Shown here: positions 22,815 through 64,000 of the stretch, piece by piece
Layout: the number at the start of each line of letters is the position of its first letter
Numbering within the stretch: position 1 is the first letter of the stretch
Source of the DNA: Tribonema minus
Lineage: Eukaryota > Sar > Xanthophyceae > Tribonematales > Tribonemataceae
Direction: 5' to 3'
Assembly (NCBI GenBank): GCA_017506865.1
Contig: JAFCMP010000518.1
Coordinates: 682,001 to 746,000, forward strand
DNA: 64,000 nt
Made by a program: the position numbers and the translations under genes
The notes under the pieces: generated by a model
What the model was told of the DNA's origin: nothing
Database searches by the model: none
The model's input: only the letters and a program-made list of their open reading frames with translations

Positions 22815-25077
22815 TTGCGCTGATCTAACGCCGTTGATGAGGACCATCGCGCGGGGAGGCTTAAGTAGGCCGCACTGGCAGGCAAAGCAGCGAAGGCTGC
22901 AGCAACGCACTCTCACCATGGCGACCTTGATGCCGGCGCGACGCAAGCTCGCCACTGCGCTGCGCACGCGTGGCCGCGGCGGGTCTGAAACCGCCACGCA
23001 CGCCACCAGCGTCAGCCCGCGCACCGGGAAGTTGGGCTCCAGGCTACCCGAAAACTCCTAGCCCTCCGGAAAGTCCGCAGCGCTCAGAGACGCGTTCTCA
23101 GCCAGCGCCACCACGCGCTGCCCGCGTCGCGCCGCGGCGTCCACCGCAGCGGCGACGGCAGCGCGCACGGCGCCCGTCATCGGCGCTGGCTGCGACGCGG
23201 CGTCGGTAGCGGCGGCGGGGTAATAGGATGTGCACGCTTCTAGAATGCGTTCAGGGGCGCCCTTGACCAGCACCGCCAGCGGCGGGGAGGCGGGGGCGGG
23301 GGCGGGCGCGCCGTCGCTGCACAGGCGCACCACGGCGCACGCCGTCTTTGCGGTGGAGGAGAAGGGCAGCAGGGCCTCGTGGCGATACGCGCCCAGAAGG
23401 GGCTGCGCGGCGCCCAGGGAGTGCGCCCAGTTGAGCAGCGCCACGTCGACGCCGTTGCTGCCGGCTGCCGCCATTGCGCCGCTGCCGTCGCTGCCAGGGC
23501 TTTGCGCATGACCTCCTTGAAGTTGTTGCTCATGTTGAGGTTGCTGTTCCGCGGCGTCGTCATCATCCAGAAAGACGGTGCGGCGCGGCGGCACCTGACG
23601 CGCGGGCGCCGGCGAGTCCTGTCGCAGCAGCTGCGACTGATTGCACAGCGTTGCCACGCGCAGCAGCGGGGCGAAGGCGGCCGCAGCGGTGCCGCCCTCG
23701 GCGACGCGTTTGCTGATCCCAGCGGGCGTCACGGTTGCGGCGTTCGTGGCGTCATTGCCGCTGCTGTTGCTGCTGGTTTCAGCGGCGCCGGCGGTGATGA
23801 TGCTGCAGACGGTCATCTGGTTGCACGTAAGGGTGCCGGTCTTGTCGGTGGCGATGAGGGACACAGAGCCCAGGGTCTCAATCGTTCCGAGGCGCTTCAG
23901 CAGGACGCGGTGCTTGTGGCAGAGCCTGCAAGGAGTGGGCAAAGGGCAATCGAGCTCAGAGGTGCGTGGAAATGAATGAAAAGACCGTGAAGCTCTGGCT
24001 GACAAGGTACCGTTAGCACATGGGTGATGCGTACCACCAGTACCGTCGGCCGTTGCCATCGCTTGCAGAGTTTTCTCAACCAGTGACACAGGGAGCAATC
24101 CGCGCAGCAAGCTTGTAAGGTGTAAATCGAGGCGTGGGTGCTCGGTGTGCAAAACTTTGGCAGGCCACGCTGCAGTAGGCCGAAGCAGTAAGGTCCAGCA
24201 GCCAATGAGAGTGCTCTTGAAGACACGTGAGTGCAGAAGGTGGAACATGTAACGCTCAGACGCGCGGTGTCTGATGTCTGCTGCAAGGAAGTTGCCTTTG
24301 CGGTGCACAGCAAGCACACAGGTGAATAAGCTGAACAGGTGCTATGCACGCAGCGTAACAGTGGTCAAAGTTGATTCAGTGAAGTTTGTCGCGTATGTGC
24401 GGCAGCACAAATCAGCCAAGCATGGCACCTGTGTGTCGCTGCTGCAGCGTTGTCATAAGCGACTCGCTGCGCGACTGAGTTGAGGAGGTCTTTGCACGGC
24501 ATGCATTGAAGCCACATTTGAACGAATGCATGCAATTAAAGTCGTGTACTCTTCGCAGTACAGACACCAGTAAATCAATCAATAGGTTATCGCGTCTTTG
24601 TCGCGCTTCGTGGCTCATCTGCATACATCTGCTTGCGTCAAGAAGGACATCAAGCAATTGCTCACGCTTTGTGAGAACACCAATTTAATCTGCGTAGCAC
24701 CGCGCACAGCAACGGATCTTACAAGGCAGGTTCCAGTCGCACTACACACTGCCTCTACCTGATTGCGGCACTGACCGCACCATGCTCACCGGCTTCTAAG
24801 TGGCATTTCAAACACAACAACACTAGACCCTTGCTGATGCCAATAAGAATGGCTTTCTGAATCTGGACAGCCACAGGAAGGTAGGCTGAAAATTCCACTA
24901 CGCTCTGCCCGCTCCTGTTAATAATGATGACTAGACGTCACCATCCTATTAGCGTTTTGAACACGTTGACGGCTTGCTGACGCTGATGAGATTAGCTCTG
25001 CAAGCTTGTGCAGCCACAAGAGATTTGGCGCCAAATGCTGCCCTGACCTGCCTGTTTGCAACAATGAGGCGCCGCCG

Positions 25078-32461: not shown

Positions 32462-32739
32462 AACAGGCGACCAGCAATCCATTCAAAGTTTGCATGGTTC
32501 ACCTCCTCTGCTCTTCGTTTGTGTCTTGCTGAGCTCATCTTCATGGTCACGTCAAGTCCACTTGGACTGCTGCGGCTCTCTGTAATTGACAAGGCCCCGG
32601 AACGTCATGCGGCGCGAGGAGCCAAGGGTTGAGAGGGAACATTTGTTCATGAACGTTCGTCTCAGGAATCCAGGAAGAACTTCAAGTTATTGTGCTGCTC
32701 ATCGTGATCACAAGTCAGCCCAAGCTTGCAAAGGCAGCG

Positions 32740-34095
32740 ATGGAAGCTGTGCATCCAATTCTTGACCCGATGCTGGCTCAATACATACTGGCGTTCATTC
32801 GCCCATCTCTTATGATCAGAAGCACATGCCGCCACTTCAGCAGCGTCGTCACCGAGGCTCAGGAAGGAAAGCAGCCGTACACTGTGGCTGCAGATGCTGC
32901 CGTAAGCTCACAGCTGATTCAATGGGCACATCGCCACGGTATGTCTCCGGAGCTGGCGCAGGATTCGTGCGTGCGCTACGGCGACCTCCGCGGCCTGCGC
33001 CGGCTTCGCTCACAATTCGACCTGCTACTGAGCGTGAGGCACAGTCGCATCGCTGCCCGGGGCGGACATCTGGAGCTTCTACAGTGGCTGGAGCAGAACG
33101 GCTGCCCCTGGGACGAGCTGACGTGCTCACATGCTGCGGCCGGAGGGCATCTGCACGTGCTGCAGTGGGCACCTGCGAACGGCTGTCCCTGGAACGAGGA
33201 TACTTGCTCACGAGCTGCGGCCGGAGGGCATCTGCACGTGCTGCAGTGGGCTCGTGCCAACGGGTGCCCTTGGGACAAGCTGACCTGCAGGGAGGCTGCA
33301 GGCGGGGGGTACCTGCACATGCTGCAGTGGGCTCGTGCCAACGGATGCCCCTGGGGTGCAGACACGTATTCATCTGCTGCACGCAAAGGGCACTTCCAGG
33401 TGTTGCACTGGGCTCACGCCAACAGGTGCCCCCGAGACGAACGCCTGTGCAATAGTGCCGCCGTCGGTGGGCATCTGCACGTGCTGCAGTGGGCCCGCGC
33501 CAACGGTTGGCCTTGGGACGAGAGCGTATGCAGTCTTGCTGCGATCGGCGGACACCTCGAGGTGCTGCAGTGGGCCCGCAACAACGGCTGTCCTTGGGAC
33601 AACCGTACGTGCGAACTCGCTGCAGAGCGAGGGCACCTAGAGGTGCTGCAGTGGGCTCGTGCAAATGGGTGTCCATGGGATAATCGGACATGCTGCGCAG
33701 CCGCAAGTAACGGCCATCTGGAAACTCTTCAGTGGGCTCGTGCGAACGGGTGCCCATGGCCTTCGTCAGTATGCAACACCGCTGCAGAGAACGGCCATCT
33801 AGAGACCCTTGAGTGGGCCCGTGCGAATGGGTGCCCATGGAACGAGGACACATGCAGCGGGGCGGCAGGCAGAGGCCAGTTGGAGACCCTTAGATGGGCC
33901 CGTGCAAACGGGTGCCCCTACGACGAGGATACATGTGCCCAGGCGGCAGGCCACGGCCACTTGGAGCTGCTCCAGTGGGCACGCGCCAACGGATGCCCCT
34001 GGGACAAGCGGACAAGCAGAGAAGCAGCGCGCAATTGTCACATCACGGTCCTGAAGTGGGCACTAGCCAATGGGTGCCCACCGCATCGTTCGTGA
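32740..34095 (+). CDS. Ankyrin-like repeat protein, intact
   Basis: I place the start at ATG 32740 (MEAVHPILDPMLAQ), which lines up with the relative at 13605; the frame is also open from 32692. The protein has about 451 aa and no intron. The N-terminus has the F-box-like segment ILAFIRPSLMIRSTCRHF. Thirteen units of 27 residues follow from about residue 105, such as GGHLHVLQWARANGCPWDK, with the Cys-Pro-Trp core and a second Cys. The end is shortened (LANGCPPHRS). Units near the middle are almost identical at the DNA level, a sign of recent unit gain or conversion. Binding of partner proteins through the array is inferred from the family type. Confidence 0.85.
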   Translation: MEAVHPILDPMLAQYILAFIRPSLMIRSTCRHFSSVVTEAQEGKQPYTVAADAAVSSQLIQWAHRHGMSPELAQDSCVRYGDLRGLRRLRSQFDLLLSVRHSRIAARGGHLELLQWLEQNGCPWDELTCSHAAAGGHLHVLQWAPANGCPWNEDTCSRAAAGGHLHVLQWARANGCPWDKLTCREAAGGGYLHMLQWARANGCPWGADTYSSAARKGHFQVLHWAHANRCPRDERLCNSAAVGGHLHVLQWARANGWPWDESVCSLAAIGGHLEVLQWARNNGCPWDNRTCELAAERGHLEVLQWARANGCPWDNRTCCAAASNGHLETLQWARANGCPWPSSVCNTAAENGHLETLEWARANGCPWNEDTCSGAAGRGQLETLRWARANGCPYDEDTCAQAAGHGHLELLQWARANGCPWDKRTSREAARNCHITVLKWALANGCPPHRS

Positions 34096-47502: not shown

Positions 47503-49666
47503 GTATGGACTTGTATTTATAAAGGCCCAAGGGACGCCGGGTTGCCTATGCAATCGAAAAGCCTGCGTCAACGCAGCAGCCTAGGCTGCGCTGTGCCCTA
47601 GGAGCTTGGATACCGGCGCTGCAACACGGCCCAGCATTCGCGCTCCGCGTGTGTACGCCATGACGCGCTCCGCCAACTCCCGCGCCAGCGATATGCTCAG
47701 CTCAATGAGGATCTGACGCTTAGCTAACCCGGCCTTGCGCAACACATCTGCCTTCCCCCCCCCTGAGCACAGTGCTGAGTGCATTGCCAACTCCTTAACA
47801 AAAAGGCTTTGCTTGCCCAGCCGTCCGTACGACTCCTGCACGAACGGCACAAAAGCCCAAGATGACGTCAAGGTGCCGGTGTGGTGCTTGACCTTCGCGT
47901 CCTCCCCCACCCCAGCAGCATAGCCGTCCCGTGTTCGAGGCATTTGTTTTGCCTGTCAGGTACGAGCTCGCTGTGGGTGCGCACACTTGTGTCTAGCACT
48001 ATTCCCTTGTTACGGTATGCACTGCTAAAGTGCAGACACCCTGGGTCAACGACTGTGTCCGCCCGATACCCCGGTACCTTGAAGACGCTAGCGTCCTCAT
48101 TGCGGACAATAGAGACATGGTGCTGTCTCAAGATGCGCTGCAGGCACCGCTTTTGGGCAGTGTGTGTCGCGTTGTGCCCCCGTATGTGCTGGCTGGGGCA
48201 GCTGATCGCATGCGTGGAGGTGGGGCTCACGTCACTGCACCGCCATGGGCACACCTCGCCCTGTATGCCCCACCCGTCTATGAAGATCGCAACCAAAATC
48301 ATCATGGCTGCTGCCATACTGGACATGGGCGCCGCACCCGGGCGGTCATTGGCAGCGGGTGGCACGCTCATCCACGCCATTGCCCCGGACGCACGCTCGC
48401 TGCGCAGCTGCGCCAGGATCCGCGCGCTAGCCTGTTGGCGGCGGCGGCTGCCAGTGGTGTCGCGCGAGTCACCAACAAGTGCAGCCTGCGTCGGCTTGCC
48501 CACGGCACCAGCCGAGGCAGCCTCTAGATCCTTCACCAGGCAATCCTCGCATTGACGTCGAAGAACATTTGAAAGGCCGGCTTGTAGTCCGTGCGTGAAG
48601 TGACCGCGCCGGCGGCAGGGCACTACCTTCCTGCAGATCTCGTCAGCATAGGCCTCCCAATCGTCGTCGTCGTCCTCCTGCCCGCCGCTGCAGCTGCTTT
48701 CTTCCGCGCTAGTTTGTGTTTTAGCGGGCGTGGAAGGGGCAGCCGCGGCAGCGGCTTGAGGGCCAGGTACGGTTGCTGCCGCAGCGGCCTCCTCGGCGCC
48801 AGGCACAATGCCGTGGGTGTGTGGGGCTGGCTCAGTGGTCACCGTCTCCGTGACGGCAGTTGCGGCGTAGATCGCTTGCACCGCAGTGGGGAGCGTCGAC
48901 GCTGCGGCCGTCGTATCTGCTGCCCACCGTAGCAACGATGCTGGGAGCTGCTCGGCCACAGCTGTGCGTGATTTTTCGCCGCCATCAGCTGTCAGCGCTC
49001 GCGTAGAGCGCCGCACGGCCTCGATGATTGGCGGCAGTCCCTGGTCCTCGCGTGTTGCGCATTAGTGCTGCGCGAACCAGGTGACTGCGCCGTGTTCGTC
49101 AGTGCCGAGCCTCAGGGCCCCTGCTGCCACAGTGGCATGAATTATTGCCGGCCGCAGTGTTGTGCATGCCTGGGCCGTGTATGCGGCTGGTGCCAGTAGC
49201 CCCAAAAGCGGCATGCCCAGACCACCTCGTCGCTCCGGCAACCGCGACGCCCGCAGTGGCACTGCGATGTCCGTGAGTTCTGGCGGGCCCATGCGCGGCA
49301 ATACCAGCACGCTGCCACTGCTGGCTTCCTCATTGTCACCAGCAGTGCAGGCGGCCAGCAGGTGTGACTTCATGGCTGCCGCGGTAGCGCAGCCGTGCAG
49401 GTGCAGCATGCGTTCGAGCGTCCATGCACAGAACCCGTCAAACGCGTGCAACCATGTCTCACTCAAAGCCGTGTCAACGACCCGAGCTAAGAAGCCCATG
49501 CGCTTCGTCAGTGACCTGCGCAGAATGAACTGTGCTGCCTGTAGGTGATGCCGCGCCATTCCAGCTAGCTGCCACGACAATCGCCATGTCCCTGCGTCAA
49601 CAAGATGCTTGCTCATGGCAGCATGCACATAGGCTGGGTGCCCTACCGGTACCCCGACCGACGTAA
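47503..49666 (-). mobile_element. LINE family B, 3' half
   Basis: It continues the LINE that starts beyond 64000 on the minus strand. It encodes the part after the reverse transcriptase core, then the RLE endonuclease: a zinc knuckle with CPWRC and an H-C pair, GHNATHT at the RHN position (48130-48260), ADTVVDPG and GIVLDTSV (about 47970-48060). It ends with FVKELAMHSALCSGGGKADV. The 3' UTR ends at 47503 in TATAAATACAAGTCCATAC. The coding part has several frame changes, so this copy is dead. The 382-codon frame on 47868-49016 is the longest piece. A poly-Ala/Glu-Asp-rich linker precedes the endonuclease. Confidence 0.75.
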
Positions 49667-50032
49667 TAACAGAATGATGCTATTCTCAAGCGTGGTGGTA
49701 GCAAGCAGCAGGTAGAGATCCAAGGGTGATCAAGTCCCAGAAAGCCCAACCCTCTATTTGCCCCCACAGCTACAGCCCCATGCTGCAGCCCTCTCCAAGC
49801 TACACTACTGTCAATGCAATCCCAATGCACAGCGAATCCGCTATGCCACAATCTACTACCTTGCAAGCTGCCGCTACAGCTCCCCCAAGGCTCTGAACCA
49901 AGCATTCAAAGCAAAGCATTTTGCAGTTTCAGAACCTTTCAGAACTGGCCACAGAACTGGCCGAGAATCTTCAGGAACTATCCCTGCTGTCTAGCAATTT
50001 CCTGTGTGCAACTTGAAAGCTCAATCCTAACA
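49667..50032 (-). repeat. 3' LTR of the chromovirus
   Basis: 366 bp; on the plus strand it runs from TAACAGAATG to CAATCCTAACA. It differs from the other LTR by about four substitutions and one 10-bp length difference. Confidence 0.92.
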
Positions 50033-50789
50033 GTCGCCCCCACTACAACGGTGCTCGTCCCGAGCACCAATGTTGTAGTACACAGTGCAATGCACAAAGC
50101 CCCCCCCCACAGTAACCCCCCCCACTGATCAGTTGAACTTAGGCCAAATGCCTCCTGTGACCTGTGCAGCAGAGTACTATGCATTCGCAGGCTAATGCGC
50201 AGAAGCACAGGTGTGACAAACAACTGCGCCTCGCCGTATGCCTGTCACAACTGCTATGACCCCCCCCCCTCGGTTCAGGCGGCCCCGCCTGCCTGAATCT
50301 TCTTGAGAGCATTGATCCTGTCGTTCGTGCTGAACAAGAACCACGCATCCTTGCTCGCATCAATCGCTAACGTGTAGTTGTTAAGCAAGAGCGGCACTTC
50401 GCGCGCCCGCGGCTCGCCAAAGAAATACACCCGAGTAGTGCCGCGCTTCGTGCGCCGGCTTGGCTTCCCCCCGCGGTCGCCTGCGAGGGCACAAACGCCC
50501 CTGCGTATGATGCCTTCGCACCACTGGAGACGCTCGCCATCCTTGTTGTCCGGAAAGTGCCACCGCATAAGGACGCGCACCCCGATCATCTCTGTGCTGC
50601 GCATCATCTCGAAAGATGGGCAGTCTCTGAGTTGCAATACCCCCGCTGGTAGTCTATACCTACCCCCAGCTAAGGTGACAAGTGGGCCGCCCTCATGCGT
50701 ACGCTCGCGCGCCTGCCTGACGCGCCCTTGCACCACCCTGGTGCCAGCATCATCAATATCGACCCCCGCTACAGTTGCTGTATGCCAGT

Positions 50790-51450
50790 ACTCCGCCGTT
50801 GCATGCTCGCATGCATCTAGCATATTGGCATCCTCCCAGCTATCTGCAATGTGGTCGCCTTCCCACCGCACCAGGTACTGTAGTGAGCCTGGCCGGCCTT
50901 TGCGATCCCGTAGGACTCTATGCCCCACTACCGCCTCTACCCCATGTCGATCAGATGCCCATGTGACATCATCTGCTGTGAGCGAAGCCGGTGCTGGCGC
51001 CGCGAGTGGATTGCGACTGAGGAGGTACTGGGCGTATCCGCCTGGTAATCCTTGCGGCTTACTTTGCTACCACCCGGATCACGACACCGCTTTGTGCGCC
51101 ACGTGGACACACGCGTTGGCCCGCCCGCCCCGTCAATGAGCAGTACATTAGATTGCACCAGCTCCTTTCCCGCATAGATAGGCCCCACTGCTAGAACCTT
51201 GTAGGGCCCCGCCCACAAGTCCAGCAGCTTCTTGCTGAGAACTGCTTTCCACCCCTCGCCAAACAGCTCCCGCGATTCCGCCTTGTGTGTTGATGGTGGG
51301 GAGTAAACCCACACCAAATCCCCCCGTTCCGCCTCATTGCGCAAGTTGAACGTGTCGGCTAGCTTGGCGTTGTTGCGCACAATGCGCTCACGCTTCAGCT
51401 CTGAGCGCCAGGACACCAGCTCGAACGCAGCTCTCTGCCGCGCTTGCATA
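50790..51450 (-). CDS. Chromovirus integrase tail: GPY/F and chromodomain
   Basis: This part follows the integrase core. It contains the GPY/F signature LWAGPYKVLAVG (about 51190-51225) and, downstream, a chromodomain-like segment (SLQYLVRWEGDHIADSWEDA, about 50800-50900) with the aromatic residues typical of histone-methyl readers. In chromoviruses this domain directs insertion to heterochromatin or related marks. A Lys/Arg-containing tail of unknown role continues to about 50280. Confidence 0.8.
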
Positions 51451-51459
51451 TCATGTACT

Positions 51460-52180
51460 ATGGCCCCAAAACCGTGTGTAGAGCCACCTTAGGCTCCCGC
51501 CCCATCACCAACATGAATGGTGAAAATCCCGTGGACTGATTGACATGAGAGTTGTGCGCAAAAGCAACGTGCTTAAGCCACTTGTCCCAGTCGCTATGTG
51601 ACTCGCTGACCGCCATTGCCAGCATCTGTGCCAGCGTGCGCATGAAGCGCTCCACCCTGCCGTTGCACTGTGGGTGGTACGCGGTCGTGTAGAGTTTCCT
51701 GATGCCCATGGCGCGGTACACCTCCCGCGCTACATCCGCCGTGTACTGGCTGCCTCTGTCACTGAGCAGACTGTGGGGCATGCCGTATAGAGTGCTGAAC
51801 TCGTCTACCAGTAGCTCCGCTGCCGTGACTGCCGTCTTTTCCCCAGCCCTGACCGCGTACAACGACACGTGGCCTGTAAGTAGGCAGATGAATACGTGTA
51901 TGTACATATACCCCTCCTTGGATAACGGCAATGGGCCGAAGACGTCTGTTGAGACCGTGTGAAAGGCATGCGGCGGCAGCTCCCTGTAGATGGTGGGCAT
52001 GCTGCTGCGCTTGCCGCCCTTGCGTGCTTGACATGGCAGGCAGTGCTCTGCCCAGAATGTGGCATCGCCTGACCAGCCCGGCCACCAGCCATGTCTCTGC
52101 ACTAACTCCATTGTGCGCCGAACCCCCTGGTGTCCCGCCCACACCTCACCATGTAGGCAATGCAGAACTGGATTCCGCAG
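51460..52180 (-). CDS. Chromovirus integrase core
   Basis: An HHCC zinc-binding start (GHQGVRRTMELVQRHGWWPG, then CLPCQARK) is followed by the DDE core: STDVFGPLP, LLSDRGSQYTAD and NGRVERFMRTL. The spacing fits Ty3/Gypsy integrases, which join the cDNA to host DNA. Confidence 0.88.
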
Positions 52181-52449
52181 CGCCTTTGGTATCACCAAAA
52201 TGGGTGAACCAGCGCCCCCAAGCATGCTCATGTCATTGTGACATAGCAGCTTTGCGCCCCCAGCCCACTCCATGCTGCAAGCTGCGCGGTGCTGTTTCAC
52301 CTGCGACTGCAGTGCTTTGTCAATTGGCAACTGCTGCGCGTCCGCCAAATGCGCCATCATGGCTGCGCAAAATGCGTCCGCGTCTTGTGCTGCCCGCCAA
52401 TCCGCCGTAGACATGTCGCCAAGCGGCTGTGCCTCCGGGCCTTCTAGTA

Positions 52450-53110
52450 TATCCGCCTCCGTGGCGACTTGCGCAGCGCCAGAGCACTGCGCCGCCGCGC
52501 TGTTGGTGCCGCTGAGCTGCGCTGCACCGAAGTACCGCGCTGCCGAGCCGCCAGTCGTGCTGCTGGGATGCGCTGCGCCAGGGCGCTGCGCGGCCGCGCC
52601 GTCGGTGTCGCCAAGCTGCGCGGCGCCGGAGCGCTGCGCTGCTGCGTCATTGCTGCTGGGTCTGTCGCTGGCCGGCGCTGCGCCGGAGCGCCGCGCTGCC
52701 GTGTCCGGAATGTTGTCAAGCGGCACTGCGCCTGAGCGCTGCGCCGCCAAACTGCCATGGGCGCCGCTGGCTTGCGCAGCGCCGAAGCGCCGCGCCGCCG
52801 CGTCGTGAGTGCTGTCAAGCGGCACTGCGCCTGAGCGCTGCGCCGCCGAACTGCCAATGGTGCCGCTGGCTTGCGCAGCGCCGAAGCGCCGCGCTGCCGC
52901 GTCGTGAATGCTGTCAAGCGGCACTGCGCCTGAGCGCTGCGCCGCCGAACTGCCAATGGTGCCGCTGGCTTGCGCAGCGCCGGAGCGCCGCGCTGCCGCG
53001 TCGTGAATGCTGTCAAGCGGCACTGCGCCTGAGCGCTGCGCCGCCGAACTGCCAATGGTGCCGCTGGCTTGCGCAGCGCCGAAGCGCCCCGCCGCCGCGT
53101 CACCTACTGC
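52450..53110 (-). repeat. 33-residue repeat array between RNase H and integrase
   Basis: A 99-bp unit encodes AAQASGTIGSSAAQRSGAVP followed by LDSIHDAAARR. About four units are nearly identical at 52710-53100; more diverged ones continue to about 52450. It belongs to the same repeat family as the array at 58.5-59.6 kb. The stretch 53110-53780 is a further Ala/Thr-rich linker. Confidence 0.85.
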
Positions 53111-53789
53111 CTTGAGCTTGGCTACAGCAGCCATACCCGCCTCTTGTCCCCCCTCTGCCGCTGCCGAATGCGCTGTAGCTGTCATGGCCGCGGGAGCCTC
53201 AGCCCCCCGTGCTGTATCATACCACCTCACCCGTTTAGTCACAGCGGCAGCGGTGCTGCTCGCTGCTGCAGTATAAGGGTGTGCCGCTGTGGCAGTCGTT
53301 GACTTGGCTGCTGCTGCTGCGCTGAGCGCTGCTGCGGCAGTGTTGACTGTTTGCTTGGCGGTCACGGCGGGTGCAGCACTTTCATGCCGCGCCGCCGCTG
53401 CCGCACCCTGCACACCGCCACCAAGTGCGCCCTCACTCGCACCCGCCACTCCCCCCAGCGCTGGTGCCAGGCTGGCTGGTGCCGCATAAGCACCGCCGCG
53501 AGTCACCACATGCATGTGGGTAACTCCGGGGCGCTCTGCGCCGCCGATGCGCTTGTTGAATCGCGACCAGTCCCCCAGTCGGGATGCCGCTGAGCCATGC
53601 GCGCCAACATTGCCGTCGCCGTCGTCGCTGTCAAGTTCCTTGCACGTGTGTATCTTAGTGCACAGATCTTCCAACATGCGTGCCGCCACTCGGCACATGG
53701 CATCGTGTCGTTGTGGGTCCGCGCTGACTCTGACAGTGTATGCCTCCAGCAGCTCATCTGCAGCCTCCTCGGCCGCATCTGCTGCTGTA

Positions 53790-55120
53790 GAGGGCATAGG
53801 GTTCCGGCTGAACCCATCTGCATTGCCGTTGCGCTCCCCTGCTTTGTACCTGATGGTGTGTGGGAAAGCCCCTAGGAATTCAAACCAGCGCGCAAGTTGC
53901 GCTGTCTTGTCCTTGCAGCTCTCCAGCCACAACAGTGCCCTGTGATCTGTGTCGATGACGAAGGGGGTGCCCCACAAGATGTGTCTGAACTTCTTGACGC
54001 CGAACACTACCGCCCCCGCCTCCAAATCTGTGGTTGTCCAGCTCTTCTGATGCTTGAGCGTTGCCCGGCTGGCAAACGCTATGGGATGCTCGACCCCGCG
54101 CACATCTGACTGCGACACTACTGCGCCAAACCCGAGCTTGGACGCGTCTGTTGCTAGGATGAAAGGACGTTCGCCGCTGGCTGCGGCCACATGATCAGGG
54201 TAGACCATAAGTGCATGAAGTGAAGTGCCATGCTGACCTCCTCGATGGCGGCCAACTCAGCAGCGCTCATCACAAACGGCACGTCTTTTGACATGCGCGC
54301 CGTCAGCGGCGCTATCACCTCCGCCATGTTCTTCACAAACCGCCGATAGTAGTTGGCCAGCCCTACCCAGCTCCGAAGAGCCAACAAGTCCTCGGGTATG
54401 GGCATGTCCAACAATGCTGAAACCTTTTCTGGGTCAGGCCGAATGCCGTTGGTCTCCACTATGTGACCCAGGAATTTGATGCGTGTGCATCCAATGTGCA
54501 TCTTTGCCGGAGCCAGCTTGATGCCGTGCTTGCGCATTCTCTCCATTAGCGCTTGGAGGTCTGCTATGTGGGTGTCGACGTCCGGGGAGTGCACTATGAC
54601 GTCATCAATGAACGACTGCACTCTGTCTAGCCCCTGTAGCACTATCTCCATGAGCCGCGTGAAGTGCCCAGGAGCGCCAGCTGCGCCCTGCGGGCACCTT
54701 GTCCACTCGTATAAGCCGAATGACGTTGCCATGGCGGTCAGCGGAATTGTTGACTGATCGATTGCCGACACAAAGAAGGCTCCGCTGATGTCTATGCCCA
54801 GAAATTTCTGGGCGCCGCCTAGCGCATTGAAGATGTCCTCAATCATGGGGATCGGGACCTTTGGGATGATGCTCATTGCGTTGAGCCGCCTGTAGTTGAC
54901 CGTTATGCGCGCCGTGCCGTCAGGTTTCATCACCCCGCCAACCGGTGAGCTCCATTCTGACTGTGACGGTCTGATGATGCCCGCCGCGAGCAGCTTGTCC
55001 ACCTCAACCCGGATGAGCGCTGTCATCTGTGGGCTGTAACGGTATGGCCGATCTGCTACGGGGTGAGCGCTGTCTTGTAGTACTATGCGAAATGGGAGGG
55101 TTTGCAGTACCCTAGGTCCC
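53790..55120 (-). CDS. Chromovirus reverse transcriptase and RNase H
   Basis: RT motifs of the Ty3/Gypsy type: SEWSSPVGGVMKPDG, RITVNYRRLNAM, the catalytic FIDDVIVHSPD (about 54590-54615) and FLGHIVETNGI. RNase H follows with LATDASKLGFGAVV and DTDHRALLWL. It copies the element's RNA into DNA. Confidence 0.9.
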
Positions 55121-55129
55121 ACTTGTCCT

Positions 55130-56180
55130 TGCTGAAGTCTGCTGCGTAGTGCTGCAGTGAGATGATTAGGCGGGCGACCTGATCTGCCATCCAGCCCTCG
55201 ATCTCCACATTGACCTTGAGCAGGTGTGGCAGCAGCACCCGCCGTGCATGCTCCAAGATCTCCTGCACCGCAGGATCCCTGCTCACCGCCTCCCCCAGAG
55301 GAGCTTCTAACTTTTCTGCAGGCGGCGCTTGGCCAAACAGGCCTAACGACCACCCACAGTGCAATAGTGTTGCTGCCTGAGCAGCGTCCCCCGTGACCTC
55401 TACCCCTAGGGCTGCCGCGGCGGTAGCTATCATTGCGATGCAAGCTTGTTTCCGCACCGCCGGCGTGGGTACTGGCGCCAGCTTGGCGTGCAGCCGTCGC
55501 CGGAGCGTCGCGCGCGCAGCCTCTGCCTCCGCCTCCGTGCGCTTGCGCTTGCCGTTTGTTGCTATATCTGGTTGATCCGTTGAAGTTGCGGTTGCCCCTG
55601 CTGCTGACTCGTCAAGCGCTCGAAGCTCTTTCTGCCAGAGCTTGAGGCAGTTGAAGTTGAAGTTGAGCTCATCTGCCCCTTCGCCGCCAAAGTTGTGGCT
55701 GCGCGCGCTTTGTGAGCTGCACGCATCCGCCCAATGTCTGCTAGAGCTAACCGCTCCAGCCGTTCGGCTGTATCTGCAGCCGTGCCGTTCATGTTGAACC
55801 CTCGGCGCTGTCGAATGTGCGCTCTGAATTCTGCTACTGGCTCCACTGTGCCTGCAGCAGCGTTGTTGCCGGCAGCTCGCTCGTCGATGTAGCGTTGCTG
55901 CTGTGTCAAGAGCAAAGTGCCCCAGCAAGTGCTGTAAGCTGCCGCCTACTTAGGGCAGTGCTCAGCTAGGGCTGCTAATGCGAGCTTCACATCCACCGCC
56001 GCCTCCACCACCGCTGGCGACTGCTGTAACTCACGTGCTGCAGCAACGCGCCGCACCTGCACCGCCTGCAGTTGCGCGTCCTGCGCATCTAGCTCTTCCG
56101 CTATGTCAGCGTGTGAGGTTGATGCCGTTGAGCCTCTGCGCTGCTGCTGCGACCCCACCAGGTGCAGTGCGCCCGCTCTG
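55130..56180 (-). other. Linker between methyltransferase and RT
   Basis: Ala/Arg/Glu-rich coding sequence with KRKRTEAEAEAARATLRRR, a nuclear-localisation-like and coiled-coil-like stretch. It also has the NFNFN peptide produced by an AAGTTGAAGTTGAAGTTG run (about 55648-55668). No known domain is recognised. The end (YAADFSKDKWDLGYC) resembles the usual lead-in to Ty3/Gypsy RT. Confidence 0.5.
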
Positions 56181-56189
56181 AACAGAGCT

Positions 56190-57250
56190 TCCCAGACGTA
56201 GTGAGCCATGCGCGGCGGTACCGCATTTGCCAGCATTTGCATATTGGCTTTGCGATCGCCGCACTGTGGCTCTGGCCAGTTGTACGTAGAGAACGTGCTG
56301 ACCGCCAGTAACTCCCCCCATGTGAGATGCGTTGCCGCCGCCACCTCATCTGGGTCCTCTGTTGCGTTTGCAGGGTTGTGTCATAAGGAGCCGGTTGTGC
56401 TGTCTGACCCTACGTGCGGTTGCCGCCATACTGATCCTCTCAGCGTGGGGCATGGCTGCGTTGTATCTAAAATCTCTGGCGCTTTGGTGTTGCGCGCGCA
56501 AAAACGAAAACATGGGCGGTCATACGCGCTGATGGCGTCAGCAACGCTCTGATATCCCTCCACCCCTTTTTCCGCAGCAAGAAGTGCTCTCAGCCGCTCG
56601 TGCACCCCCCGCCAATCCGCTTTGTCATCACGCGCAAGCTCGCCGCCACCCAGGCGGCCACGTGTGAACATGAGGAACACACGGCGCCGCTTTGTAGGCA
56701 GGCCGCAGTCGTTGCCACTGATGACGTTGTGGCTGTGGTCAAACCCTAAGCCCTGAGCTAGGTCTAGAGTCCGCTGGAACTCAGGTGTGCTCAGGAATCC
56801 CACCACGTTCTCCAATAGCACCATGCGCACTGTGCTGACCGCCGCTGAGACCTGCAGCATGCTGATGATGCACTGTATGCCCTTCTGAGAGCATCGTTTG
56901 CCTGACATGCTGAAGTCAGTGCATGGGGGTCCACCGCTGGAGACTTCAACCCCAAGTCGGCGTGCCTCCGCTATGATGTGCAGTTGAGCGCTGCGGTCGT
57001 TGATGTTAGCAGGCATTACTGTAGTGCCGCAGTGGTTGCTGGCAAACAGTTTGCACGCCCGCTCGCTGATGTCTGACGCCAGCACTGTGTGCACAAACGG
57101 TTTTGCGCCCTCGCTGAGCCCCCCTGCACCACAAAAGAGTTCCATGGCTTTGGGCTTAAGGAGGTTGCTGAGCAGTGGACTGCCGAACTCGTCGCAGCTG
57201 CGCTCAGAAATTGGCGTGTCCTCCATCGCGAGAGCACGGCCAATGGACTG
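56190..57250 (-). CDS. Cytosine-5 DNA methyltransferase domain in the chromovirus
   Basis: The domain carries the ordered motifs of C5-MTases: motif I MELFCGAGGLSEG (about 57105-57145, AdoMet binding), motif IV with the catalytic Cys in GGPPCTDFSMSGK (about 56900-56935), motif VI LLENVVGF, motif VIII PTKRRRVFL (about 56675-56705) and motif X ANAVPPRMA (about 56200-56235). Motif I to motif X spans about 300 residues, typical of a compact bacterial-type or DNMT catalytic domain. The stretch before motif X would hold the target recognition part. It lies between protease and reverse transcriptase in the pol order. Expected activity is transfer of a methyl group from AdoMet to cytosine C5 in DNA. 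Host C5-MTase genes and retroelement-borne ones reported from charophyte and dinoflagellate lineages are the nearest known parallels. Confidence 0.9.
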
Positions 57251-57399
57251 GCCGGGCCGCAAATCAATGTCCCCGCCCAGTGAACGTAGCACCACTGGCG
57301 CCGCCCCCGTAGGCGTAAGCCCCACTGTGATGCGGTCCGCCTGTAGACCACCATGGTCCACGCAAACCTCCACTGACATGTCTTTCACTGTGCCAGGAT

Positions 57400-58080
57400 C
57401 GCCTGGTTTTCACTGTGCCAGGATCGCCTGGTTGAACTGGTGTTTTGCCATCTTCATGGCATATGCGTAGTGAGACCCATCTGTCTCGGTCGCCGTTAAC
57501 ATGCGCGGTGCGTGCAACTACTGCGCGCCAGTGCTCCGTCGGGTCGCCGCCGTCCCTCACGCGCAGCACTGGCACAGTCGGGCCGCCGTCGCACTGTGCC
57601 TGCCACGTTTTGGGCCCCGGTAGAAACTCTATGTCGATGATGCCGGGCTTTTCGCCGAGCCGTTGGTTGATGTTATGTAAGCCAATCACATCCCCCCCAA
57701 GCAGCATGGATGCCCCAAGATTGGGCACCACTAGGAAGATCTATGCCAGCTTCACTGGTGTGCGGCCCACCGCCACAAACGTGATGTGAAGTAGCACCGC
57801 CTTACGCACCTTTGTGCGCTGCCTTGATGTGTCGAACCCCGCTAATATGTGCGGGTGCTCCATTTCGAAGACTGCATCTGCGTGAATGGCGCGCTGATGC
57901 AGGAGCCGCTTGATCTGCGCCTCATCAATGCACGACGCTCCACACCCTGAGTCGTACGACCCATCCTTAATCTGTACAGGTGGCTCTATACCGCCGCGCC
58001 GCCTGTCCACCGAACAGTTGAACTGCATTTTGATACCGCCGTGGCATGTGAGGTGCCCCGGCTGCAGTCCACGTTGCTGC
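57400..58080 (-). CDS. Chromovirus aspartic protease region
   Basis: YDSGCGASCIDEAQI (about 57920-57960) has the D-S/T-G active site of retropepsins. The later LGASMLLGGDVIGLHN (about 57680-57720) matches the hydrophobic ILGxD segment near the end of such proteases. It would cut the polyprotein. A short tandem repeat of ACTGTGCCAGGATCGCCTGG lies at 57395-57435. Confidence 0.75.
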
Positions 58081-58539
58081 CACTGTGATGAGCCATTGCG
58101 CTGCTCGCGCATGCTCTGCATTTCTGCCGCGTGCAGGCAGTTGAAGTTGCGATCAGCGTCCGTTAACAGGTCGTCCCTGCTGTAGTCGCTGTTGCGCGCT
58201 GTGGTAACTGAAAACTGATTGGAATCCGCCACCGGTGGTTCTGGTTCCTCAGGGGTGTAGTCCTTCCAGAAGTCAACACGCGCCGCCCGCGTAACTTCCC
58301 CGCCATCCTCACAGTCTGAGTCGCCATAATCGCTGTCGCTCTCATCCCCGCCATCGACATCTGTCATAGTTGTGTCGTCGGTGATGTAGCCCTTTGCTGC
58401 ATACTCTCCCCCCCCTAAGCAAGGAGAAGTGCACTCCTGTGCAGCTGTGTCTGAACGCCGCAAGTTCAAGTTCAAGTCCGGGCAGCCAGCCGCTGTATTC
58501 ACCGCAACATGTGCCGAAGCGCACTGCTGCGCTGCTGAG

Positions 58540-59640
58540 CCGCCGAGAGTGCCGTTGGGCTGCGCTGCGCCTGAGCGCTGCGCTGCCGCCGCATCATTGC
58601 TGCTGCTAAGCGGCGCTGCGCCGTGGCGCCGCGCTGCTGAGCCGCCGATGTTGTCACGAGGCTGCGCGGCGCCGAAGCGCTGCGCTGCGTCGTCGTTGCT
58701 GCTGCCAAGCGGCACTGCGCCGAAGCGCTGCGCCGCTGAGCCGCCGATGTTGTCACGAGGCTGCGCTGCGCCGAAGCGCTGCGCTGCCGCGTCGCTGTTG
58801 CTGCCAAGCGGCACTGCGCCGAAGCGCTGCGCCGCTGAGCCGCCGATGTTGTCGCGAGGCTGCGCTGCGCCGAAGCGCTGCGCTGCCGCGTCGCTGTTGC
58901 TGCCAAGCGGCACTGCGCCGAAGCGCTGCGCCGCTGAGCCGCCGATGTTGTCACGAGGCTGCACTGCGCCGAAGCGCTGCGCTGCCGCGTCGCTGTTGCT
59001 GCCAAGTGGCACTGCGCCGAAGCGCTGCGCCGCTGAGCCGCCGATGTTGTCACGAGGCTGCGCTGCGCCGAAGCGCTGCGCTGCCGCGTCATTGCTGTTG
59101 CCAAGCGGCGTTGCGCCGAAGCGCTGCGCCGCTGAGCCGCCGATGTTGTCACGAGGCTGCGCTGCGCCGAAGCGCTGCGCTGCCGCGTCGCTGTTGCTGC
59201 CAAGCGGCACTGCGCCGAAGCGCTGCGCCGCTGAGCCGCCGATGTTTTCACGAGGCTGCGTTGCGCCGAAGCGCTGCGCTGCCGCGTCGCTGTTGCTGCC
59301 AAGCGGCACTGCGCCGAAGCGCTGCGCCGCTGAGCCGCCGATGTTGTCACGAGGCTGCGCTGCGCCGAAGCGCTGCGCTGCCGCGTCGCTGTTGCTGCCA
59401 AGTGGCACTGCGCCGAAGCGCTGCGCCGCTGAGCCGCCGATGTTGTCACGAAGCTGCACTGCGCCGAAGCGCTGCGCTGCCGCGTCATTGCTGTTGCCAA
59501 GCGGCGCTGCGCCGAAGCGCTGCGCTGCTGAGCCGCCGATGTTGTCACGAGGCTGCGCGGCGCCTAAGCGCTGCGCTGCCGCTTCGTTGCTGCTGCCAAG
59601 CGGCGCTACACCGAAGCGCTGCGCGGCTGAGCAGCCGATA
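58540..59640 (-). repeat. 33-residue repeat array upstream of the protease
   Basis: About ten to eleven 99-bp units, each encoding AAQPRDNIGGSAAQRFGAVP followed by LGSNSDAAAQRFG or close variants. The units are nearly identical in DNA, which indicates recent expansion. The array creates long false frames on both strands. Confidence 0.92.
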
Positions 59641-60436
59641 GTGCTCAGCTCCATGTTGAACTTCGCAGGTGCAGGCGCAACGCGGGTAGCGCTGCAATCC
59701 ACACCCGTGCCTGATGCCGTGCCCGCGGCCGCCCCCGCGGTGCCACGATATCGCACATCCCGTTGCGATGGAGGGGGTGGGGACGTGGTGCCAATAGCAC
59801 AATCGTCCACACCCGTGCTTGACGCAGTGCTGCTAGCCCCTGCTGCAACACCACGCCGCACATTACTCCTGGGTGCAGTGCCAGCAGTCCCCGTGGCCGC
59901 CGCGCTACCACACCCCTCGTCTGGTGCAGTGTCGGCAGCCGCGGCAGCGGCTACTGAGTCACTGCACTCTGCGCCTGTCAGTGAGTTCTGTCCTGATGTG
60001 ACGCTTGTGTTGGCATGCATGCGCGGTGCAGCTGTGCTGCACTCTACGCTCATCATTGCACCAGATGGTGTCAAGGTGCCTGCATCATGCAGTTCATTCA
60101 TGATGCCTGTGTGGTGCTGCATGGTGTGAGGTGCAGTCAATGTAGATTCTGCTTTGTTCAAGTTGTTGAAGTTGAAGTTCACACTCTGCAACACCGAGTT
60201 CTGCGTGTCTGCTCTAGTTGGTAACAGTTTTAGTTGCTCAGCGGCCGTGAGGGCTTTTGTGCTACTTAGCCGCTGCGTTGTTGACGGCGGCACAATGTTC
60301 CGCTCGTCTGCGTTGGTTGTTAACAGATTGAGTTGCGCAACGGCTTGTGAAGTCGCTACACTATCTACCTGCTGCGTTGATGTCGTTGGCATTGGGTTAG
60401 GCGCTGCTGCATCAGTTATGGCCACCTGCGCGGCTT

Positions 60437-61288
60437 TTACTTCAACACTGCCTTGTCGTACACGCCCCCTGCTGCGCTGCGCCCTTTGCGCCGGCGCAGG
60501 TGGTTGTGTGCCAATACCTTCCCGATCTGCTTCCCCAGGGTCGGGACAATCCCCTGGGTGGCACCCCTATGGGCCCATCGTTCGAAGTTTCTCATTAATC
60601 CAAGCTGTGACATGGCGCGGCCTAGTGTTTTTGTCCATTGCATTCCACTCTTCTTCAACTTCTGAGTGTTGTTAAAGTGGACGAGATTCTTAGCGCCTTG
60701 GCCCCCCTTACTCCTGGACATGTCATTGTTGGTGGCATTGTACGCTTTCGGGCAGTCACGCCAGGTGTGGCCGAGAACTGTGCAATTGGCGCATACAAAT
60801 TCAGGCTTGCCACCTGGCTGTACTTGATGCATTTTTAGACCCTTGCCCTGATCCTTCTCTCTCTTGGGGGCCAAATGCCGCTGTGAGTCAGGGAAGGGAT
60901 GCCACCTAACGGCTTGATGGTTGGTAGCATGCTTCGTCTCATCCCGTACTTCATTGACAATGTCAAGTGCTGTCATGCGGCCTTGTGCGTAGGCGTCACT
61001 GCTCGAGATGTTTTCCATGAATTGAAGTAGACCTTGGAAAGTGTTCGAGAAAAACTTGACTGCGATCGCTTCGAAGAAGGGCCGCATTTGACGGTACGGG
61101 TCGTTCTCAGAAGTGAATGCCTCAGCGATGTTGACTGCGCTAGCATATTGGCTGATGGCATCCTCCACGCTCGTGCCTTCGGGGACAGTGAACTGCTCCA
61201 ATGCTTGTGAGTACTGGTCAGGGTTCCCCTTGTGCAATACCTCTGCAATTTCAACTTCAACTTTCTTTAGCAAAATTGAGTCAGGCAT
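60437..61288 (-). CDS. Chromovirus gag with CCHC knuckle
   Basis: It begins MPDSILLKKVEVEIAEV just after the primer site and includes a helical capsid-like part (about 180 residues) and the zinc knuckle CANCTVLGHTWRDC (CX2CX4HX4C, about 60750-60800). It packages the RNA in virus-like particles. The region 59640-60437 between gag and the array is Ala/Ser/Thr-rich with NFNFNNLN and gives no domain match by eye. Confidence 0.85.
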   Translation of the reverse strand: MPDSILLKKVEVEIAEVLHKGNPDQYSQALEQFTVPEGTSVEDAISQYASAVNIAEAFTSENDPYRQMRPFFEAIAVKFFSNTFQGLLQFMENISSSDAYAQGRMTALDIVNEVRDETKHATNHQAVRWHPFPDSQRHLAPKREKDQGKGLKMHQVQPGGKPEFVCANCTVLGHTWRDCPKAYNATNNDMSRSKGGQGAKNLVHFNNTQKLKKSGMQWTKTLGRAMSQLGLMRNFERWAHRGATQGIVPTLGKQIGKVLAHNHLRRRKGRSAAGGVYDKAVLK

Positions 61289-61307
61289 ACCCTCAGACTC
61301 CTCCAAC

Positions 61308-61663
61308 TAACAGAATGATGCTATTCTCAAGCGTTGTGGTAGCAAGCAGCAGGTAGAGATCCAAGGGTGATCAAGTCCCAGAAAGCCCAACCCTCTATTT
61401 GCCCCCACAGCTACAGCCCCATGCTGCAGCCCTCTCCAAGCTACACTACTGTCAATGCAACCCCAATGCACAGCGAATCCGCTATGCCGCAATCTACTAC
61501 CTTGCAAGCTGCCGCTACAGCTCCCCCAAGGCTCTGAACCAAGCATTCAAAGCAAAGCATTTTGTAGTTCCAGAACTGGCCACAGAACTGGCCGAGAATC
61601 TTCAGGAACTATCCCTGCTGTCTAGCAATTTCCTGTGTGCAACTTGAAAGCTCAATCCTAACA
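61308..61663 (-). repeat. 5' LTR of the chromovirus
   Basis: 356 bp, same ends as the 3' LTR (TAACAGAATG to CAATCCTAACA on the plus strand). The target duplication GTAA follows at 61664-61667. Confidence 0.92.
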
Positions 61664-64000
61664 GTAAAGCCCTGACTGGATTCTGGCATGGTGGCGTCCA
61701 CAAACGGTATGTCAAGGGCGCGCAGGCGTGCTCTGGCCGCTTCATCAAACACTGTGCCGCGCATGGCAATGGCCAGCGATTTGTCTGGTCGAACGCGTAG
61801 GCCCCCTGCCGCCAGCCGGCGGATCACCTCTGCCACCCCAGCGGCCGCTGCATCGTCGAAATAGGCAGCTTGCAGCACGTTGAGGTCATCCAGGAAAGCG
61901 CAGTGCGGGGCTGGCGGTTCCGCTGTGCTGTGGCCGTAGGCCGGCATACTGCCGGGCGTCGCATTCACTCCATCAGGGTAGAAGAGTGGGAAGACCGCTG
62001 CCACTGCAAAGTACAGCGGCCCTAGAGGGTCCCCTTGCTGGCACCCTAGGTGGGAGCAGATAATGCGAGCTTCACCGTTCACCTCCACTCGCATCTCTGG
62101 GGCAGTGTCACCACAGTATACGGACTCAAAGTGCGGGAGCAGCTCCGGACAGAAGAGCATAAGCCCCCGCACAATGGCGGCGCGATCCACACTGTTAAAT
62201 GCGTTCTCACAGTTCAGCTGGATTGTGGTGCCATACAGCTCGTGCCACACGCGCGCGCGCGCTGCCACATGCTCGACGCCAGACCGGTATCCTACGCCAA
62301 ACTGCGACATGGAGGCCAGCAGCCCCGATATCTTGCCCTTGACACTCCATGCCGCTGTGGACCCGAGGAGTCTGCGCCAGACACTGGAGCAGGCGATCGG
62401 ACGCCGCTTCTATCCTATGCCTGAGAGGGCCGCGGCGCGGAGAAGCCGTTGCGATTGCTCCGGCAGCAGTTCGGGCTCAACAAGCAGCGTCGTGAACACC
62501 TTGGCCAGGTGATGGGCGAATGCCGGTTCCATCACATCCGATTCTGAATCACCAGCTAGTCCTGGCGAGGCACTGCCCACGGGGCGGGTGGCTGCTTTCA
62601 CTGGTGCACCAGGCCCAGCGGCCATCAAGAGGTGTTCATAACGTAGGCCGTCCAGCCCTCCTGCCTTCCCCGCTCCTGCTACGGACAAGGTCGACAGTAT
62701 GTCTGTCGCCTCCACCTCGAGGCGCCGTCCGGCTGCGCTGGCAGCATCCTCAGGCCTATCGCTGTGATCATGCGCCTGACCCGAATTGAGGACAGGACTG
62801 CCGCTGCCAGCGGGCCCGGCGGTCGTTGCCACCCCTGCGCTGTGCAAGCACTGGCAGTGCCGCCGGGCGTCGCGTACCAGGCCGCGCACTTGCTCCATTG
62901 GCATATCGACTACCCCCGGCCGGGTGCCAGTTTCAGGGTGCTTTGCTGCCAGCACCTGTGCCGTGACCTCGTCTGCTGGGGCGCATGCTTCACGCGCCTC
63001 TAGTCGTGCGGCAGCCAGGCCTACCCCCCGTCGCTTGCCTGAGAGGGCAGCGCATGCTGTTTGCTGCCTGGAGTCCGCCGCCGTCCAGTCGGCATCGAAG
63101 TTCGTTTGTGCCGACGCCGTAGCTGCGTTGTTTGGTTTAGGGGCCCGCAGCGCCGCTGCTGCTGACAGCGTCTTTCTCAGTAGCTCTGCGAAGTCGCCAG
63201 ACAGCAACGCTGCCAGCCGGGCCGCAGGCGGCATACCGGTTCCCTCCGGTTGCCCACCAAAGGCCATTGCTGCTAGCAGGTGCAGCAGCCTGTAGCCGCG
63301 CTGCACTAGAGTCTGAGAAACCTGATGTGCAAACGCCCCGGCACCATGGTGGAGGCGCACCCGTGCCGCCTCACGTGCACTGTCTGTGGCGTCCGCCAGT
63401 AGTCGTGTGGCGTGCTCCACTAGCCGTGCTCACTGGGTGCACTGCAGCTGAGTGCGGAAGGGGTTGGCAGTCGTGGTGAGCCGCAGCAGCAGTAGATCCG
63501 CCTCATTGGTCTGGTCAAGTGCGTGGACGACCGAGGGCGTCGAGAGGTCCCAAGCCAGGGATGCTCGTGCCTGGGGCTTTGAGGGCCTGCCACTGGTGGT
63601 GGTGGTCGGGGGGGGCGGTGACACGGCATCGTCCGGCGGGTCCACGTCCATGTCCACCCACCCCACGGCCGTCCCGTGGGGGGGGCTGCTGTCCTGCAGC
63701 CTCAGGCTGTCAGACTGAGTGCGGCTGCCGGCGCTGCCAGGCGGTGCCGCAGCAGCTGCCGTTCGGCGCCGGCGTTGCGCGCCGGTTGCCGTGGCCGCCG
63801 GGCGTTTCTTGCTGGACTTTGAGTTGGCAGCGCCACTAGCCGGCACCGCCGGTGGCTTTGGAGGTGTCGCTGCGGCAGCCCCCGCCGCCGCGGCCGCGCC
63901 GTCGCTACCCGCACCCCCGCCCTCGGACTGGCCCGGGGGTACTGCCGGGCGTGCGCGCGTGGGGGCGCTTCCATTCCGTCGACACGTGTGGCATGGCGAG
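61664..64000 (-). mobile_element. LINE family B, 5' part, running off the window
   Basis: Read from 64000 downward: a Pro/Ala/Ser-rich N-terminal part, a helical region with many Ala, then the non-LTR reverse transcriptase. RT motifs are AGKAGGLDGLRYEHLL (about 62650), LNCENAFNSVDRAAI, GCQQGDPLGPLYFAVA (about 62005-62055) and the catalytic FLDDLNV (about 61880-61900). The chromovirus sits directly before the GVPVG motif that follows the RT core. The frame changes at least once near 63420, so this copy is not intact. The 5' end lies outside. Confidence 0.8.

Follow-up and report, generated by a model that had tools for sequence, protein, structure and literature searches.

The window analysed here, a 64,000-nt stretch of Tribonema minus DNA (contig C515, positions 682001-746000, in a 158-Mb assembly), carries at 49667-61663 on the minus strand a Ty3/Gypsy-type long terminal repeat (LTR) retrotransposon that encodes a cytosine-5 DNA methyltransferase (C5-MTase, hereafter MTase) within its polyprotein. 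Pfam scans and motif reading together gave the domain order gag-like, protease motif, MTase, reverse transcriptase (RT), RNase H, integrase and chromodomain, all on the minus strand. The MTase domain occupies 56156-57181 (PF00145, E = 7.5e-20 over 56660-57148), and its motifs I (ELFCGAGG), IV (GGPPC), VI (LENV) and VIII (CGLPTKRRR) share one frame. It is preceded by a protease-like segment read from a D-S-G motif (57660-57960) and followed by the RT (54457-54927; PF00078, RVT_1, 4.4e-22), the RNase H (53864-54172; PF17917, RT_RNaseH, 1.3e-31) and the zinc-binding and core domains of the integrase (51671-52192; PF17921, Integrase_H2C2, 3.8e-15, and PF00665, rve, 4e-10), which is the RT-RNase H-integrase order of Ty3/Gypsy pol. 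The C-terminal part of the integrase (50940-51488), read by eye, contains WAGPYKV, a presumed GPY motif, and the chromodomain lies directly after it at 50785-50940 (PF00385, E = 8e-8). With a chromodomain after the integrase and a presumed GPY motif the element has features of a chromovirus, and we use that label as a candidate assignment only.

A reading of the window made from its sequence alone had placed MTase motifs I, IV, VI, VIII and X in order between the protease and RT of an LTR element, and had noted that one element thereby combines the enzyme with a chromodomain. The combination was borne out by the Pfam matches, and the domain order, LTRs and target duplication stood as described, but motif X (ANAVPP) lies downstream of an in-frame stop at 56381-56383, so that the MTase frame of this copy is interrupted. 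Frames are also broken between the protease and the MTase, and the window copy is decayed. In other copies of the same family the frame continues through motif X (contig C550) or passes the site of the stop and ends before motif X (C517).

The borders of the element are well defined. The 3' LTR (49667-50032, 366 nt, with sense start TGTTAGG and end CTGTTA) and the 5' LTR (61308-61663, 356 nt) align with 354 of 368 columns identical, 4 mismatches and 10 gap columns; of the usual, not defining, LTR termini TG...CA the start fits and the end does not, in both repeats. A purine-rich stretch adjoining the 3' LTR (50033-50046) was read as a candidate polypurine tract, and TGGAGGAGTC, which begins two bases past the 5' LTR, is by reading only a candidate tRNA primer-binding site. 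The repeats are flanked by the duplication GTAA at 49663-49666 and 61664-61667. Outside it lies an interrupted non-LTR retrotransposon on the minus strand, with its RT part at 61668-64000 and extending past the window (RVT_1 1e-5, below the curated cut-off) and its 3' continuation at 49065-49662. Removing the element and one GTAA restores an open RT frame across the joined flanks. When a 520-nt joined flank was used to search the genome (583 candidates, 40 scored), all 40 scored copies matched it end to end at 99%, confirming the empty site; since the joined flank matches full-length genome copies, the borders are placed correctly and the element is a genuine insertion.

The arrangement recurs widely in the genome. 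The window MTase query gave at least 120 matches (118 of 369 candidates scored) and a PF00145 search at least 123 (of 378 candidates); merged, these amount to at least 191 distinct MTase-domain loci, of which at least four lie outside these elements (a DNMT2-like locus at C523 and three MTases at C223 and C181), an adjoining RT having been checked for part of the loci only. An RT query from a related family (family C, below) had 152 matches, and the 94 listed at 50% identity or more were merged to 82 loci. We compared these with 101 of the 120 MTase rows (16 rows of a 26-31% class and three C212 fragments were left out); a further 56 RT rows of a 37-40% class, the J class, were handled apart. 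An MTase lay upstream on the same strand, at 0.9-3.0 kb, in 67 of the 82 RT loci, and conversely 66 of 83 MTase loci had a related RT downstream on the same strand. Because of this frequency and the number of genome matches, the association of MTase and element is beyond chance. Single long frames join MTase and RT in C551, C4, C23, C8 and C89. The frame in C551 is 2,936 aa long, with protease, MTase, RT and RNase H in 2,211 aa and then integrase and chromodomain in 725 aa, and it is open at 6 loci among the window-MTase matches. Further copies with the order of the window element, which the sequence-only reading had proposed looking for, were thus found in C551 (protease to chromodomain) and in C550 (MTase to chromodomain). 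The same results dispose of the concern that a host gene or bacterial contig had been joined to an LTR element by misassembly or stood beside it by chance. The broken frames seen in the window copy are all that speaks for such an artefact, and with 40 of 40 full-length empty-site copies, an upstream MTase at most of the related RT loci and MTase-RT frames on five contigs, the recurrent order refutes it and we consider it practically excluded.

The elements fall into several families and groups. Group 1 comprises families A (the window copy, C550 and C517), B (C212 and C516) and C (C551 and others), with the order protease-MTase-RT-RNase H-integrase. Besides the window, a chromodomain was found by Pfam in the family A copy of C550 (L069, 3.8e-8) and in the family C copy of C551 (L071, 2e-7); the stretch of family B that was read ends before the chromodomain position. 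The family C integrase has HGPYSI, seen by eye, likewise a presumed GPY-type motif. Group 2 comprises families D, E, F, G and H and has the order MTase-protease-RT-RNase H-integrase, which D, E, F and G encode as a single frame; in H the frames of the copy read are broken. The C-terminal end of group 2, in E and G (elements L208 and L209, at C4 and C8), is Tudor-like; its PTM_DIR17_Tudor matches, 4.1e-5 in G and 0.049 in E, fall short of the curated cut-off. There are two further groups: group I (C312 and C212) has MTase, RT and integrase in broken frames, and group J (C33) has a protease-like motif, an MTase-like domain and then an RT. Pfam matched a protease in family D only, below the cut-off, and gave no protease match in the window copy or family C; elsewhere the protease was recognised by its motif. 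MTases therefore belong to several of the genome's Gypsy lineages and not to one element, and among the lineages reached by the RT query we met no Gypsy lineage wholly without an MTase domain.

Motifs I, IV, VI, VIII and X of the MTase are all present in families A, B and C (except that a second C sequence stops short of motif X), the PPC of motif IV is kept in A, B, C, D, G, H and I, and all ten sequences, from nine families, in a profile of the retrotransposon MTases (A3) keep the cysteine and ENV. The group 1 profile was compared with solved structures and matched DNMT2 (7.4e-13), DNMT1 (1.7e-10) and M.HaeIII (8.2e-10); the window protein alone had DNMT1 as its best solved match (7e-7). No chain named DNMT3 was present among the 50 distinct PDB sequences that matched the group 1 profile at E <= 1, and no BAH or RFTS companion domain appeared in Pfam scans of the element frames. 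An AlphaFold2 model of the window MTase, made from the window sequence and 25 prokaryotic or viral homologues, had a mean pLDDT (predicted local distance difference test score) of 74, with 15 of the first 17 ten-residue blocks at 90 or above and the C-terminal part below 50; it covers the catalytic half well and the target-recognition part poorly. A fold search with this model returned MET1, DNMT2 and DNMT1 first (E 2e-13 to 4e-13) and no DNMT3 among the 50 matches listed, a result that is not independent of the sequence match because the model alignment was built from MTase homologues. The top solved match of the group 1 profile, DNMT2, is a tRNA methyltransferase, and the enzyme could accordingly methylate RNA (the element RNA or the tRNA primer) and not DNA, as de Mendoza et al. 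raised for SymbioLINE-Dnmt (PMC5890265, in the text available). We think this improbable, since DNMT1 closely follows DNMT2 for the profile and is the top match for the window protein, MET1, DNMT2 and DNMT1 come out side by side in the fold search, and our trees do not put the retrotransposon MTases with DNMT2.

These MTase trees held 28 prokaryotic and 10 viral rows, picked by similarity to group 1 and hence a biased choice, and did not contain DNMT3, DNMT5, DNMT6, ChloroDNMT or most host enzymes; the MTases read outside the elements were a DNMT2 (L024) and three others (L021-L023), and further possible host genes lie at C97, C538 and C544. Groups 1 and 2 were each well supported. The retrotransposon MTases in correct frame fell on one side of a branch with support of 94/87 when J was included and 87/72 without it, and the nearest outside rows were alphaproteobacterial, Latescibacterota and one viral contig (94/83; 89/78). 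The tree that the sequence-only reading had called for thus brings the retrotransposon enzymes together with moderate support, but among mainly prokaryotic and viral rows and with no DNMT3 row. Kinship of group 1 with DNMT1 was not rejected (approximately unbiased test, p-AU 0.293). In an RT tree with one piece per copy, families A-C (100/100), D-H (100/100) and I with J (97/97) were recovered; the RT and MTase trees concur at group level, and differences within group 2 lie on weak branches. A close donor of the MTase was not seen among the viral-contig, phage and prokaryote relatives. For group 1 these were 56 loci in viral contigs (21-30% identity), 379 phage records (all below 60% identity, the best-placed at 27%) and 80 prokaryotic loci kept of 216 (33% for the top-scoring, 38% for one partial match); for group 2 no relative was found in viral contigs (110 pattern matches, none confirmed).

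The history of the domain can be read in two ways. Group 1, group 2 and the I/J group may each have taken up an MTase separately, as the different orders, protease-MTase-RT in group 1 and MTase-protease-RT in group 2, would suggest; moreover I_L037 and J_L210 are long branches that meet in the MTase tree, and their pairing could come from branch length. That both trees set all the correctly framed retrotransposon MTases apart by a branch of moderate support argues the other way, and we regard independent captures as possible while not expecting them. Alternatively, a prokaryotic-type C5-MTase may have entered Ty3/Gypsy Pol once, before the main Gypsy lineages of the host split, and become a core, vertically inherited part of nearly the whole radiation. 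Its order would then have been rearranged in one branch, and in another it would be catalytically dead but retained; it would be a permanent component of retrotransposition and work alongside readers of chromodomain or Tudor-like type. We offer this single entry tentatively, as a proposal that falls somewhat short of an even case. The sequence-only reading had further supposed that, in a stramenopile host, this would be a capture separate from those of charophytes and dinoflagellates. The profile matches, to DNMT2, DNMT1 and bacterial enzymes and to none named DNMT3, make a separate capture likely; the placement of the host in this argument draws on rbcL fragments in nuclear contigs, which we take to be red-type, and on the 18S at C259 (1012 bits to RF01960), which we read as stramenopile-like.

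Our favoured reading of the element itself starts from the observed anatomy, integration, recurrent order and constrained MTase and adds a proposed mechanism of self-methylation and an old acquisition. The MTase would be released with, or remain attached to, the RT or integrase in the particle or the nucleus, and would methylate the new DNA copies of the element and perhaps the neighbourhood of the insertion as well, while the chromodomain would steer the integrase toward marked chromatin. New copies would then land in silent chromatin and resemble it, doing less harm and not being treated as foreign. The MTase would go back to an old uptake of a prokaryotic-type or early DNMT-like gene and would since have passed down with pol through several Gypsy lineages of the host. 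For the proposed methylation of element DNA there is precedent in the MTases of SymbioDIRS-Dnmt3, which carry out de novo CG methylation in yeast (PMC5890265, in the available text). For this combination of observed structure and proposed mechanism and history we judge the case to be evenly balanced.

Constraint on the MTase is indicated by ratios of nonsynonymous to synonymous substitution rates (dN/dS) of 0.19 (A/B), 0.10 (B/B), 0.30 (C/C'), 0.20 (E/F) and 0.21 (D/G), next to 0.19 for the RT in A/B, with dS near saturation in the diverged MTase pairs and two of the seven pairs (A/B6 and G/H) saturated and without a dN/dS value. That saturation is the first of several points that weigh against our reading. 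The ratio of nonsynonymous to synonymous differences per site (pN/pS) is lower in the RT than in the MTase for E/F and D/G, so the MTase evolves faster than the RT there. No MTase was found upstream at 15 of the 82 related RT loci, and the clade of all retrotransposon MTases is not firmly supported at the values given above. The closest architectural precedent, KnitGypsy-Dnmt3, had no activity in yeast, a result that its authors call inconclusive (PMC5890265, in the available text). Motif IV is altered to 'APC' in E, 'SSC' in F and 'TRC' in K and L, two sister subfamilies of J (L213 and L214, 180 nt each read). Lastly, the J domain (L210:1796-2806, C33:6796-7806) is without the motif IV loop that bears the catalytic cysteine, and this subfamily is abundant (at least 142 rows), so catalysis appears to be dispensable in some lineages.

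These last observations raise the alternative that the MTase is mainly a non-catalytic module of Pol, binding DNA or RNA or serving a structural role (it might hold the template or primer, for example, or compete against methylation by the host), with catalysis dispensable. J keeps its domain after the loss of the loop, at 87 bits to A3, and a domain of this kind lies upstream in 50 of 56 J-class RT rows (none was found at the other 6), a count made with 69 of the 142 domain rows; the erosion of motif IV in E, F, K and L points the same way. Against this, PPC persists in seven families and groups, the cysteine and ENV in all ten A3 sequences and likewise in the sisters K and L, and the assignment of J rests on our home-made profile because its Pfam score is below the cut-off (PF00145, E = 0.006). 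We therefore consider a mainly non-catalytic role unlikely. At C272 and C292 an MTase match on the plus strand and a J-class RT on the minus strand lie 4.8 kb apart, perhaps a shared nested arrangement.

We also looked for a trace of methylation in the copies. The frequency of transitions at CpG sites relative to that at other C/G sites was 2.6, 3.35, 1.5 and 5.64 in four family A pairs and 1.25 and 1.47 in two comparisons of the non-LTR element; elsewhere it was 1.43 and 2.62 (C), 1.7 and 3.08 (D), 2.86 (H), 1.48 and 1.93 (I), and 2.04 in the virus-neighbour pair L022/L023. These ratios are compatible with CpG methylation, and neither prove it nor are specific to MTase-bearing elements. Here too our reading is weakened: the excess is weak, with small counts and a scatter of 1.4-3.1 in C, D, H, I and L022/L023, and an observed/expected CpG of 0.91 for the element, where the remainder of the window has 0.78, means that the element is not CpG-depleted.

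Retrotransposon-borne DNMTs have been described before, and we compared our elements with them using the text available of each paper. Dinoflagellates and a charophyte have LINE, DIRS and Gypsy elements that carry DNMTs (PMC5890265), which confirms the captures that the sequence-only reading had named, and retrotransposon-borne DNMTs are reported again, together with orphan DNMTs, in PMC12344493. KnitGypsy-Dnmt3 of Klebsormidium nitens resembles our elements in having a DNMT inside a Gypsy LTR Pol, in several copies and under purifying selection (Ka/Ks < 0.2 there), but its MTase is a DNMT3, its repeat structure is described as DIRS, and the available text names no chromodomain (PMC5890265); the T. 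minus elements have no DNMT3-named match, ordinary LTRs with a target duplication, a chromodomain and several MTase-bearing Gypsy lineages. SymbioDIRS-Dnmt3 and SymbioLINE-Dnmt of Symbiodinium are likewise retrotransposon-borne C5-MTases with high copy number and coexisting domain orders, yet they belong to DIRS (tyrosine recombinase) and LINE elements and carry DNMT3 or orphan MTases (PMC5890265), whereas here we find LTRs and a DDE-type integrase. Ectocarpus, a brown alga and thus a stramenopile, has Gypsy elements with C-terminal chromatin readers, chromodomain or Tudor, as in our two groups, and some of its chromodomain Gypsy elements lie outside the chromoviruses; the available text mentions no C5-MTase in them, and the MTase there is of N4C/N6A type in a Sola1 DNA transposon (PMC12477816). 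DIRS elements with a Dam-like adenine methyltransferase also carry a methyltransferase as an accessory domain, but that enzyme is unrelated to C5-MTases and the element class is another (PMC5890265, PMC6338049). A study of microeukaryote DNMTs refers to de Mendoza et al., and its available text has no account of a DNMT borne by a retrotransposon (PMC9998398). DAM- and DCM-encoding Ty3/Gypsy and DIRS retrotransposons have been stated for stramenopiles among others (PMC6338049), which weighs against novelty. In open-licence papers, mostly judged by their search listings and with subscription papers and preprints outside the search, we recognised no report of a C5-MTase and a chromodomain together in one Gypsy element. 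The kind of element is already known; what is new is the lineage of the host, the class of enzyme, the presence of reader domains, the exchanged positions of MTase and protease in one group, and a subfamily that has lost the cysteine.

Other features of the window element and its surroundings are as follows. The gag-like frame (60440-61306, minus strand) was recognised by reading and had no Pfam match in the window scan; it contains CANCTVLGHTWRDC, a presumed CCHC zinc knuckle. Two in-frame repeat arrays lie on the minus strand, at 58486-59775 in the polyprotein (48/51-nt units) and at 52596-53192 in the RNase H/integrase interval (99-nt spacing), and their 48/51-nt units are related. The non-LTR element that was interrupted has at least 40 copies at 99% identity in the genome. 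It was considered as an MTase carrier in its own right and rejected, as four frames in the 5.5 kb that follow (L065) had no Pfam match at 0.05, MTase included. Similarly L058 (C218), in which MTase and non-LTR RT share one 2,033-aa frame, proved to be a family D Gypsy element interrupted by a non-LTR element. The latter sits in the protease region of the family D copy (L058:1-4300), where a single open frame spans both, and is 96.7-97.7% identical to the window target, the part at 61668-64000 being at 97.7%. An OTU-like stretch was seen by eye (GNCLIHTALHGIGS) upstream of the non-LTR RT, over L065:656-1504 and window 61668-64000, where Pfam gave nothing at 0.05. Elsewhere in the window, frames at 10487-12046, 14211-14906 and 32692-34092 (plus strand) and 23061-24317 (minus strand) encode ankyrin repeats or, in one case, a P-type cation ATPase.

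Of the MTases outside the elements, L021 and L022 (C223) and L023 (C181) are uninterrupted frames of 367-390 aa, with L022 and L023 near-identical. A frame adjoining L021 resembles a virus-type nucleotide kinase by eye, and the regions of L021-L023 are possibly endogenous giant-virus DNA. The genome also has at least 92 matches to the light-harvesting complex (LHC) family; of three LHC proteins compared with solved structures, one is closest to fucoxanthin proteins and two to a multi-domain LHCI protein.

Cytosine methylation is usually a weapon of the host against transposons, and here transposons carry the enzyme at scale, beside readers of chromatin marks. With many young, near-identical copies, an enzyme that does not resemble DNMT3, two domain orders and a natural cysteine-less subfamily, the elements of T. 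minus are a resource in which methylation compared over the copies of the subfamilies could address why retroelements keep DNA methyltransferases.

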